The translations under genes were made by a program, and so were the position numbers. A DNA stretch of 64,000 nt from an uncultured Bacteroidia bacterium (GTDB lineage: Bacteria > Bacteroidota > Bacteroidia > Bacteroidales > UBA932), in contig CACZMF010000002.1 of the NCBI GenBank assembly GCA_902782225.1, forward strand, positions 124,001 through 188,000, written 5' to 3'. This document shows, piece by piece, positions 4,947-52,842 of the stretch (its first letter is position 1; each line of letters begins with the position of its first letter). A model generated the notes under the pieces. That model saw only the letters and a list, made by a program, of their open reading frames with translations, ran no database searches and was not told where the DNA came from.

Positions 4947-6533
4947 ATGGCACAAAACTCAATAAAGGCAAGCGAGATTTCCGACATACTCCTTGAACAG
5001 CTCAAGGGAGTCGATACTTCGCTCAAATACGAGGAAGTGGGCAGCGTGTTGACCGTCAGCGACGGCGTGGCCCGCATCTACGGCCTGCAGAAGGCCGAGG
5101 CGGGCGAACTGCTGGAATTCGACTGCGGGGTCAAGGCCGTGGTGATGAACCTCGAAGAGGACAACGTGGGCGCCGTCCTGCTCGGCCCTACCGACCCCGT
5201 GAAGGAGAATATGCGCGTGCGCCGTCTTGGCCGCATTGCCGGCATCGACGTCGGTGAAGGCCTGGTGGGCAGGGTCGTGGATCCCATAGGCACGCCGCTG
5301 GACGGACTCGGTCCCGTGCAGGGTGAGACCCTGCGTATGCCGCTGGAGCGCAAGGCGCCCGGCGTCATCTTCCGCGAGCCGGTCCACGAGCCTCTGCAGA
5401 CCGGCCTGAAGGCCATAGATTCCATGATTCCTATCGGCCGCGGCCAGCGTGAGCTGATCATCGGCGACCGCCAGACCGGCAAGACCGCCATTGCCATCGA
5501 CACCATCATCAACCAGCGCAAGGGCTTCCTGGAAGGAAATCCCGTGTACTGTATCTACGTGGCAGTGGGGCAGAAGGGCTCCACGGTGGCCTCTATCGTG
5601 CAGACTCTCAGGGAAAAAGGCGCGATGGACTACACCATCGTGGTGGCCGCCACCGCTGCCGACCCTGCCGCCCTTCAGTACTACGCTCCTTTTGCGGGCG
5701 CTGCCATCGGCGAGTATTTCCGTGACACGGGCCGGCATGCCCTCGTGGTCTATGACGATCTCAGCAAGCAGGCGGTTGCCTACCGTGAGGTTTCCCTTAT
5801 CCTTCGGCGTCCTTCCGGACGCGAGGCTTATCCGGGCGACGTCTTCTACCTGCATTCCCGTCTGCTCGAGCGTGCCGCGAAGATCATTTCGCAGCAGGAG
5901 GTTGCGGAGCAGATGAACGACCTTCCGGAATCGCTGCGCGGCAAGGTCCGGGCGGGCGGTTCCCTGACGGCACTGCCCATCATCGAGACGCAGGCCGGCG
6001 ATGTGTCGGCATACATTCCGACCAACGTGATTTCCATCACCGACGGCCAGATCTATCTTGAGAGCTCCCTCTTCAACGCCGGCTTCCGTCCGGCCGTAAA
6101 TGTGGGCATTTCCGTGTCCCGAGTCGGCGGTGCGGCCCAGGTGAAGAGCATGAAGAAGGTAGCTGGCACCTTGAAGATCGACCAGGCGCAGTTCGCCGAG
6201 CTGGAGTCTTTCTCCAAGTTCTCTTCCGACCTGGACAAGGTCACGGCGATGGCTCTGGACAAGGGCCGCAAGAACAACCAGCTTCTGATCCAGCCGCAGT
6301 ATTCTCCTATGCCGGTCGGGGAGCAGGTTGCCGTGCTGTATTGCGGCACGAGGGGGCTCATGGCTGATATTGAGATTGACCAGGTGATCGAGTTCCAGCG
6401 TCTTTTCCTCGAGCGTATGAGGGCATCCTGCGCTGATGTTCTGGCTGAGCTTGAGGCGGGGGCTGTGTCTTCCGGGGCGGAGGAGCGTATTAAGGGTATT
6501 GCGGCTGATGTATGTCGTCTCTTAGGGAAGTAA
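4947..6533 (+). CDS. atpA: F1Fo ATP synthase subunit alpha
   Basis: Non-catalytic nucleotide-binding subunit of the F1 head, 528 residues, full length. The P-loop GDRQTGKT is at residues 173-180. The stretch [14 protein letters not shown] carries the arginine finger that completes the catalytic site of the neighbouring beta subunit. The gene follows atpH after 2 bp, and its last 22 bp overlap the start of atpG in a different frame. Confidence 0.98.
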
Positions 6534-7699
6534 AGGATCGTATCGCTTCTGTGCGTGGCACGCTGAAGATCACTTCGGCGATGAAGCTTGTGGCGTCTTC
6601 CAAGTTGCGGAGGGCGCAGAGGGCGATCGAGGCGTTGCGGCCGTATGAGGAGGCACTTGCTTCCATGCTGGCGGCTGCCTCATCTAGTGCATTTATGGCC
6701 GGTGGGGTATGGGGTCAAAGGGCCATAAACTTAGGACAAAGGCCCTTTGACCCCATACCCCGCCGGCCTGAAGATCCCGTAGAGTCAGGACAAAGGCCCT
6801 TTGACCCCATACCCCGCCGGCCTGAAGATCCCGCAGAGTCGGGACAAAGGCCCCTGGGACCATCTCCCCGCCGGCCTGAAGATTCTGCAGAGTCGGGAGA
6901 TGGGGATGAGCGGCCGGGAAGGGCTGTGGTGGTGGCTTTTTCGAGCAACAGCTCGATGTGCGGGGCGTTTAATTCAAACGTAATCAAGCGCACTCTCAGT
7001 GAGATCCGTGCGATCAGCGCTTCCGGCCGGCAGGTCGAGGCCTGGGCATTTGGAAAGAAGGTTGCCGAGGCGCTTCGTAAGGCGTCCGTTCCGGTGGAGC
7101 GTGATTATACGTCGCTGGTGTCGCATAGCGAGTATTCTGCCGTGGCTGCGATTGCGGAGGATCTTCGTGCGCTTTATGCTTCCGGCGATGTGGACAGCGT
7201 CCTGCTGGTCTACAACCATTTCGTCAGCACCGGCCGGCAGGAAGTCGTCGTGGAGCCGTATCTCGGTGCCGCGCAACTCCCTGACCTTCAAGAAATTGCG
7301 CAATTTGCCTGCATGGAAAAAGATGCAGGCAAAAGCGGTAAGGTGCTGAGGGATAGGGAGATAGGGGGCACCGGCGGCACGAACAGCATGAACGGCACGA
7401 ACGGCACGAACAGCATGAACGGCACGAACAGCACGGACGGCACGGAGGGGGACTATATATTGGAGCCGTCGAGGGGCGGGCTGCTGGAGTTCCTGATGCC
7501 GCAGGTGCTGGATCTGCGGCTGTATGCGGCCCTGCTGGATTCTGCAGCGGCGGAGCATGCCGCCCGCATGATAGCAATGCAGGCTGCCACCGACAATGGT
7601 GAGAGCCTGCTTGCGGAGCTTACGCTCGAGTATAACAAGGGGCGCCAGCAGAAGATCACCTCCGAGATTCTCGATCTCGTGGGCGGCTCGGCGCAATAA
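6512..7699 (+). CDS. atpG: F1Fo ATP synthase subunit gamma, enlarged by in-frame repeat insertions
   Basis: Rotor shaft of F1. The N-terminal coiled-coil helix ([21 protein letters not shown]), the middle Rossmann-like domain ([18 protein letters not shown]) and the C-terminal helix ([15 protein letters not shown], ending EILDLVGG) are all intact. The protein is 395 residues against about 290 for the family. The excess lies in two places. Residues about 62-128 hold three copies of an 18-residue proline/arginine-rich unit. Residues about 287-312 hold a Gly-Thr-Asn-Ser-Met low-complexity run. Both fall in loops known to vary in gamma subunits, so the reading frame and probably function survive. 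It overlaps atpA by 22 bp and ends 2 bp before the convergent gene; no terminator is visible at this junction. Confidence 0.93.
6697..6768 (+). repeat. 28-bp inverted repeat inside atpG
   Basis: The arms 6697-6724 and 6741-6768 are reverse complements at 27 of 28 positions and are separated by a 16-base spacer. The mRNA of atpG could fold this into a long hairpin in the middle of the coding region. The right arm is also the first part of the 54-bp tandem unit. The palindrome translates without a stop in the atpG frame, as do Rickettsia-type palindromic elements that enter genes in frame. Confidence 0.9.
6734..6895 (+). repeat. Three tandem 54-bp repeats inside atpG
   Basis: Units 6734-6787, 6788-6841 and 6842-6895 each encode an 18-residue block of the type [18 protein letters not shown]. 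Units 1 and 2 differ at only two bases; unit 3 is more diverged ([18 protein letters not shown]). The period is a multiple of three, so copy-number change would not break the frame. Together with the inverted repeat this forms the first gamma-subunit insertion. Confidence 0.93.
7293..7333 (+). repeat. Overlapping palindromes inside atpG
   Basis: The sequence 7293-7306 is a perfect 14-bp palindrome (AAATTGCGCAATTT). Its right end overlaps a perfect 11-bp inverted repeat with arms 7304-7314 and 7323-7333 around an 8-base loop. The two structures cannot form at the same time. They lie about 40 bp before the low-complexity run. Confidence 0.8.
7371..7447 (+). repeat. Nine-base tandem repeat run inside atpG
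   Basis: The stretch is built from a GGCACGAAC-like nonamer that alternates with a variant carrying AGCATG, giving a Thr-Asn-Ser-Met-Asn-Gly protein run at residues about 287-312. It stands immediately before the conserved DYILEPS segment of gamma. The unit is divisible by three, so length variation would remain in frame. Confidence 0.85.
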
Positions 7700-52095: not shown

Positions 52096-52168
52096 CCCCT
52101 CAAATCAGCCTCCTGGAAGTCAAAACAGGGAGAGGTGTACATACAGAATGAACAGGATGAAGGTTTTC

Positions 52169-52261
52169 TGTTCACCTGTTGGGCCGTCTGAGATTCTTCG
52201 GTTCACCTGTCGGGTCGCCTGAGATTCTTCGGTTCACCTGTCGGGTCGCCTGAGATTCTTC
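52169..52261. repeat. 31-bp tandem repeat, three copies
   Basis: Copies at about 52169-52200, 52200-52230 and 52231-52261; the second and third are identical and the first is diverged. The unit ends in GAGATTCTTCG, the sequence that begins the dispersed repeat directly downstream, so the array may have grown from that element. Confidence 0.85.
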
Positions 52262-52286
52262 GGTCGCTACGCTCCCTCAGAATGAC
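52249..52286. repeat. Dispersed repeat, opposite orientation to the nhaA copy
   Basis: Reads AGATTCTTCGGTCGCTACGC followed by TCCCTCAGAATGACA. Its reverse complement corresponds to the nhaA-end element at 35757-35787 with a few substitutions and an inserted triplet or two. The ends can pair to form a hairpin. Confidence 0.7.
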
Positions 52287-52312
52287 ACCGGGATGTCATT
52301 TTGAGCGCCAGA

Positions 52313-52364
52313 GATGTCATTCTGATTTCCGTGATGTCATTCTGATTTCCGTGATGTCATTCTG
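52313..52364. repeat. 20-bp tandem repeat
   Basis: Two complete copies (52313-52332 and 52333-52352) and one partial copy (52353-52364) of a unit beginning GATGTCATTCTG. The core GTCATTCTG again matches the end of the dispersed repeat. Confidence 0.85.
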
Positions 52365-52516
52365 CCCGGGAACTGGTCGCTAGGGACACCAAGCCCGAGC
52401 CGTCGGAATGGAAGGCCCCGGTCTTCATTCCGTCCGAAATGATAAGAATATTTTGCCAATACTGAGCCACCCGTGGTCGAGATTTTTGCCGGAAGGCCGA
52501 GACGGTTGTAGGGGTT

Positions 52517-52604
52517 GGCGCAGGTCCCCACTCTCTTTGGCGCGGGCCCCTACTCTCTTTGGCACAGGTCCCCACTCTCTTTGGTGCAGGCCCCTACTCT
52601 CTTT
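52517..52604. repeat. 22-bp tandem repeat with alternating variants
   Basis: Four units (52517-52538, 52539-52560, 52561-52582, 52583-52604), all ending CTCTCTTT. Odd units carry AGGTCCCCA and even units GGCCCCTA, so the true period is 44 bp. A fifth start at 52605 leads into a hairpin with arms 52605-52612 and 52632-52639; another with arms 52667-52677 and 52691-52701 repeats the same core. Confidence 0.88.
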
Positions 52605-52842
52605 GGCGCAGGTCTGTTTTTTGGCAAGGGGCCTGCGCCACTGGCATGCACAGGAAGCCGTTTCGCGGTGCAGGTCCCCACTTCTTTTTCGGACCTGCGC
52701 CAAACAACCGGGGACCCGCGCCGCAATAATGTCATTCCGCGCTATTCCGAGCGCGCGAAGACAACGTCAACACTCCCACATCGTCTTCGCGAAAGTTTTC
52801 CGCACTGGCAGCCGCAACCTCCCCGGCACCCACGGCCGGCTT

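Follow-up and report, generated by a model that had tools for sequence, protein, structure and literature searches.

Within the gene for the γ-subunit of ATP synthase (atpG), positions 6697–6768 of the window (the whole 64,000-nucleotide stretch of DNA analysed here) are probably a copy of a dispersed mobile palindrome of about 72 bp, seen in one genus, whose head is constant and whose free arms are templated on each other. We observed a family of such hairpins in which the head is constant and the arms are free, together with matched changes in the two arms, empty sites in relatives, in-frame copies in protein genes and one apparent inversion of the loop between close relatives. The family resembles the palindromic elements of Rickettsia in entering coding frames and, should self-templating be proven, might represent a new class.

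A translated hairpin in atpG

The host gene occupies positions 6512–7699 of the forward strand, and the ORF listing gives it without interruption over the whole 395 amino acids. Its product is an ATP synthase γ-subunit (PF00231, E = 1.3 × 10−75; the score exceeds the cut-off of TIGR01146), as the alignments to PDB chains also indicate. An inverted-repeat search placed the two 28-nt arms of the hairpin at 6697–6724 (left, forward strand) and 6741–6768 (right, forward strand), 16 nt apart and 96% complementary, with a single G–T pair and the rest Watson–Crick. The 16-nt loop between them, ATAAACTTAGGACAAA (6725–6740, forward strand), is the conserved part that repeats across the family, with exact copies at other loci and in other genomes. 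Folded as single-stranded DNA, the 72-nt element reaches −37.1 kcal/mol (z = −9.98), a value that none of 200 shuffles equalled. Because the frame stays open, the element is translated. The 28-bp inverted repeat and the 54-bp units reported in an earlier note on this DNA were both recovered by the repeat search and by TRF, and its claim that the insertion keeps the frame holds over the entire matched ORF. Alignment to solved γ chains places the additional residues between query residues 1–63 and 141–255; in the best of them, 6n2y_G, which we take to be from Bacillus PS3, residues 61–78 stand opposite query residues 64–140, an excess of about 59. This agrees with the position that the note had assigned to the insert, presumably between the N-terminal helix and a Rossmann-like (nucleotide-fold) domain.

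TRF also detected an in-frame tandem array with a period of 54 bp (6733–6898, forward strand; 3.1 copies, as in the assembly). The corresponding direct repeats at 6723–6776, 6777–6830 and 6831–6884 are 100, 93 and 72% identical to the first copy. In each unit, the right arm is accompanied by the 3′ half of the loop and by 18 bp of flank; this composition leads us to interpret the array as a tandem duplication that arose secondarily from half the hairpin and lies outside the element proper. The palindrome and the repeats had been taken for one insertion; of the two, the palindrome stands as the element and the units appear to be later additions. Half-hairpins, consisting of an arm and the start of a loop, lie beside full copies in the left flanks of two other loci (L206 and L207), as in atpG, and at L237 repeats follow a full copy in the right flank, again as in atpG. 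Elsewhere in the window, three more tandem arrays (31-, 20- and 22/44-bp units) lie close together at 52166–52614.

The atpG insertion site holds other repeats in the relatives G011, G004 and G027 (L005, L007 and L004), among them a hairpin with arms of about 12 bp, judged by eye, and, in G004 and G011, a stretch coding for RPERS. Given these other repeats at the same place in the γ-subunit, in-frame repeats may have a hotspot here.

The gene contains a second palindromic insertion, absent from the earlier note. This element, which we call element B, is a REP-like in-frame palindrome at 7304–7333 (forward strand; similarity search and hairpin check) with a constant stem (TTTGCCTGCAT/ATGCAGGCAAA; TTTGCCTGCA) and a variable loop, and thus provides an internal contrast: the same gene hosts an element of the opposite design. 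Eight more regions of the genome are similar to that of element B at E < 1 × 10−3. Seven of them still form the hairpin, and the one that does not is at the 3′ end of what we read as an oxidoreductase frame. Element B is dispersed in the window's genome (L053–L062), lies in frame in rsmA (L056, PF00398), and occupies the same site in the atpG of G027. It is adjoined by 9-bp repeats of the GGCACGAAC type (7366–7449, forward strand; repeat search and TRF), which code for N-G-T/N-S-T-like runs and form a second variable stretch of the γ-subunit.

Constant heads and free arms

A 26-bp stretch centred on the atpG loop matched exactly at two contig ends of the window's genome. These ends overlap (99% over 124 bp) and yield a single locus between serC and serA, both named by eye, at which the same loop is enclosed by different arms in a perfect 29-bp palindrome. 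We therefore rejected the arm as the repeated unit: the earlier suggestion that the 28-bp arm recurs through the genome found no second copy, as the arm pattern occurred only in atpG genome-wide even with up to two mismatches; it is the 16-nt loop that recurs, with different arms. An exact 20-mer based on the loop hit three records in the GTDB species collection, all from uncultured Bacteroidales or Bacteroidia, in line with the proposal that a Bacteroidales carries an in-frame palindromic element distinct from those of Rickettsia. Loop searches of the genus and of the GTDB species collection returned more hairpins in which this loop is combined with unrelated arms. Several candidates were discarded on the way. 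Loop matches with two mismatches in the genus were mostly chance, since backward-read controls gave counts of the same order and few of the fetched matches had arms; an exact loop in G111 and loop-pattern matches on three viral contigs were without arms, and a one-mismatch loop in G112 had arms of only 6 bp.

Seven seed elements aligned without gaps over 72 columns, and 26 of the 28 pairs changed on both sides, a count reached in none of 500 shuffles. Among 69 elements measured by gapless extension, arms are 27–31 bp long in 40 and loops 16–17 nt long in 47. Identities and pairing counts were taken from the 49 of these with loops of 16–18 nt and arms of at least 21. Identity is 0.73 in the loop (546 pairs of the same length) and 0.60 in the inner 11 bp of the stem, and falls to 0.29 in the outer 17 bp, against a chance level of 0.26. 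The conserved head thus comprises the loop, 16–17 nt with a consensus near ATAAAACWTGGGRAAA, and the roughly 11 bp that close it. Most seeds have the loop ATAAACTTAGGACAAA, whereas the commonest loops among the copies found are ATAAAACATGGGAAAA and ATAAAACTTGGGAAAA; the consensus is therefore more than a reflection of the query. A second head type is possible: at L306 in G219, which is orthologous to the G023_L211 locus, a hairpin with a different loop was seen by eye. Capture of the arms from phage DNA was considered and dropped, as 27 of the 49 arms, joined and compared with phages, gave one match at E = 0.8.

Insertion at empty sites

The joined flanks of ten loci were compared with nine genomes, and for several loci the match ran contiguously over the junction, which identifies empty sites. 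At the serC–serA site, G129 has 5 bp between stop and start; at the site of G023_L210, the upstream stop codon in G219 abuts the end of the convergent gene. The whole element is absent from the relative at both of these clean sites, which indicates that the arms arrived with the element, barring clean loss in the relatives. This bears on a different account, in which only the head moves and the arms are local host sequence, made at each insertion by inverted duplication of the flanking DNA. In its favour, about 8 basal arm bp at G023_L214, upstream stop codon included, resemble the empty site of G071, and the basal 5–8 bp of one arm at G000_L208 resemble the corresponding sequence in G129 and G219. 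However, neither arm is present in the relative at serC–serA or at G023_L210, barring deletion there, which contradicts a host origin of whole arms; we regard this account as very unlikely, and judge from the basal matches that a few of the outermost arm bases may be host-derived. At the G023_L215 site, G071 retains a shortened hairpin, consistent with deletion.

The ends of 57 of the 69 elements were analysed for repeats and flanking motifs. Direct repeats of at least 5 bp showed no excess (8 of 57, against 8.9 by re-pairing), whereas those of 4 bp were found in 26 of 57 against 16.5 by re-pairing. No terminal tag emerged within 15 bp on either side, where no base exceeded 27 of 57 at any position. 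By approximate gene calls, 16 of the 69 elements lie between convergent, 22 between codirectional and 12 between divergent genes; nine lie inside ORFs, and ten, near contig ends or at cut loci, were left unassigned. These calls miscount the atpG copies of G000 (the window's genome), G023 and G072 as intergenic, and of the nine inside ORFs seven are backed by family models, the other two (L209 and L215) being unsupported by a real gene.

Family models place in-frame copies in six gene families: atpG, dnaG, dnaX, hutI, rsmE and uppP. The atpG copies are in G000, G071 and G072, where family models identified the gene, and in G023 and G424, where it was identified by sequence. In dnaG, the copy codes for amino acids 452–475 in G023, on which the family model was run, and is also present in G071; the same site holds a hairpin in G219 (by script) and G072 (by eye) and a decayed one in G319 (by eye), and no hairpin was detected at the dnaG site of G000, G129 or G424. 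The hutI copy, in the window's genome, covers amino acids 66–91 of a stop-to-stop frame and precedes the model-matched part (106–450). The remaining copies code for amino acids 199–224 of rsmE (L233), 137–161 of uppP (L252) and 462–478 of dnaX (L249), the last with the weakest hairpin. In the linker of this dnaX, from G072, two model matches are adjacent (L249:1378–1546; 26.0 and 34.4 bits), and the gene that follows it resembles the window gene at 87–878.

A patchy distribution within one genus

A covariance model of the family, R1, matched 17 of 400 genomes of the genus at E ≤ 0.01. Thirteen of the 17 match at E ≤ 2 × 10−8, their copies having been fetched in part, and four weaker genomes (G092, G220, G298 and G356; E = 4 × 10−4 to 7 × 10−4) are assigned by model score alone. 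Across the order, 393 genomes spanning 206 genera were searched, and the window's own was the only one to match. Stricter filters applied in both searches, and no more than 12 candidates were scored in any one genome, a ceiling that G023 and G129 reached, so that copy numbers are lower bounds. The window's genome has at least six element loci: atpG, serC–serA, two on contig C4 and one each on C3 and C17. At the Rfam gathering threshold, the window and six element loci searched with it returned a single match, to a tRNA in the window. No other description of this dispersed hairpin was found in the open-access literature searched, a scope outside which most subscription papers fall.

The distribution also speaks to whether the insert is an artefact of assembly, or a loop of ancient origin conserved in γ-subunits. 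Some features would fit an artefact: the exact-loop relatives are all assemblies of uncultured bacteria, and two G072 palindromes (L245 and L246) that reach the script's 80-bp limit near contig ends look like assembler fold-back. Against this, the element is present in the atpG of five genomes from separate assemblies, and the exact loop recurs elsewhere in the window's genome. An ancient loop is contradicted by the relatives: atpG matched in 49 of them, 29 loci were fetched, and R1 matched one (G023) and left 28 without a match, a result against the ancient conserved loop that the note had named as refuting its reading. We consider either explanation extremely improbable.

Arms that change together

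The 22 inner pairs of 49 elements give 1,078 pair cells, of which 1,032 are Watson–Crick, 31 are mismatches and 15 are G–U. Changes that keep Watson–Crick pairing are two-sided in 424 cases and one-sided in 28. Selection on RNA pairing should prefer G–U to A–C. Among the non-Watson–Crick cells, A–C/C–A number 19 and G–T/T–G 15, so that, against the expectation for RNA, G–U is not favoured; the equality of the arms thus seems, from these counts, to be kept at the level of DNA rather than RNA.

A conserved loop on a covarying stem, as in the seven seeds, would also be expected if the hairpins served as terminators or attenuators, or as a structured RNA whose loop is bound, with arms diverging by ordinary compensatory mutation. 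Many copies are intergenic, including the 16 of 69 between convergent genes, as such roles would favour. Yet A–C mismatches are as common as G–U pairs, placement over the three intergenic classes is near random (on approximate gene calls), copies lie in frame within coding sequence, the seven sources searched contain no Rfam family other than the tRNA, and just 17 of 400 genomes of the genus have the hairpin. Selection at the RNA level is, on balance, an unlikely origin of the pattern.

Copies at orthologous sites illustrate the changes. The atpG copies of the window's genome and of G023 differ at 5 of 21 arm positions, each difference being matched on the opposite arm, and their loops show 0 of 16 differences but are inverted relative to the gene. 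G023 and RUG392 (L173, G424), whose atpG flanks are 89% identical over 2,794 bp, have left arms that are identical over 21 nt and loops in opposite orientation, the right arm of RUG392 being cut to 10 bp. Read along atpG, the loop is in the plus orientation in G000 and G424 and inverted in G023, G071 and G072. G023 and RUG392 are the one case in which the loop is flipped beside a common left arm; elsewhere, differences in orientation accompany different arms. Several copies, such as the dnaG copy common to G023 and G071, retain 3–4 uncorrected mismatches, so arm matching is not continuous. Other possible sources of the matched changes are strong selection to maintain a hairpin in DNA, and repeated insertion at one site.

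Homogenisation of arms and inversion of the spacer or loop by template switching have been published (PMC8604942, PMC8794818), as have palindromes with concerted arms in the coding sequences of nematomorph mitochondria (PMC6649704). The present hairpin shares arm homogenisation, without a G–U bias, with these systems, and the G023/RUG392 pair may show loop inversion as well. Those palindromes are resident and altered in place, whereas the present hairpin has also been dispersed to new sites.

Relation to known palindromic elements

MITEs retain terminal inverted repeats related to a transposon, whereas the ends of the present hairpin are its least conserved part. The family might nevertheless be an ordinary REP or MITE that depends for its movement on a RAYT, or on a full-length insertion sequence from which it has its ends. 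As small palindromes that are dispersed and have empty sites in relatives, a mark of mobile elements, its members would fit, and Y1_Tnp genes are widespread, present in 143 of 200 genomes of the genus. However, the outer ends are unconserved and the flanks of the 57 elements carry no conserved tag such as the terminal tetranucleotide of REPs. Around 26 Y1 transposase genes in seven carriers, the 1.5-kb flanks contained no copy of the hairpin above chance (one match, 14.8 bits, E = 0.63), so a RAYT link finds no support at these loci. A search of an eighth carrier, G299 (83% complete), gave no Y1 match, and G014 (70% complete) was likewise without one. Element B, REP-like and opposite in design, has one copy (L326:1285–1314) that precedes a RAYT-like open frame by about 70 bp. 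An ordinary REP or MITE is therefore improbable.

According to a published account, the REP elements of the GTAG/CGTC families associated with RAYTs are dispersed hairpins with complementary stem changes, sometimes arranged in tandem with flanking DNA (PMC3733652). Dispersal, complementary stem changes and tandem grouping with flank are found here too. REP families, however, have a terminal tag and a family-specific stem or loop sequence; the present hairpin has no tag, a free outer stem and no Y1 neighbour among those found. In PMC10969869, MITEs are described as short inverted-repeat elements able to form in-frame fusions, and the palindromic elements of Rickettsia as small palindromes, about 150 bp long, that sit in frame within unrelated genes, are translated and encode a conserved peptide. 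Like the Rickettsia elements, our hairpin lies in frame in several unrelated protein genes. Unlike them, it is 72 bp long with a loop that may invert, and its conservation is confined to the head, with outer arms near chance identity rather than a sequence or peptide conserved along the element.

A possible mechanism and its meaning

In the mobile, self-templated palindrome that we favour, the element would have inserted into a variable loop of the γ-subunit and left the frame open. What would keep the arms matched is DNA synthesis templated within the hairpin, by template switching or by fold-back (hairpin-primed) copying, in which one arm is rewritten from its partner: an alteration on either side would then appear on both, and the same synthesis would flip the loop. 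Slippage at the hairpin could produce tandem duplications of half an element, such as the 54-bp array. The conservation of the head suggests recognition by a mobilising factor, and the head may be the site that this putative machinery recognises.

More tentatively, and with appreciable doubt, the family could be a new class of selfish DNA in which only the loop and the tip of the stem are heritable and each round of replication or transposition rebuilds one arm from the other. The same tentative reading would have the arms drift as perfect complements, the loop flip, and the element spread through the genus with repeated exonisation into essential proteins.

In the papers cited here, it is the ends or stems that identify dispersed palindromes; the present element conserves its loop and varies its stem. 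With a constant loop and a variable stem, function and history are separated within 72 bp. The copies at orthologous sites, with differing arms and with loops in either orientation, preserve, in natural bacterial genomes, a record of how palindromes evolve, and they make testable how such hairpins persist and spread, and how essential proteins such as the γ-subunit, the primase and the clamp loader take up foreign in-frame peptides.
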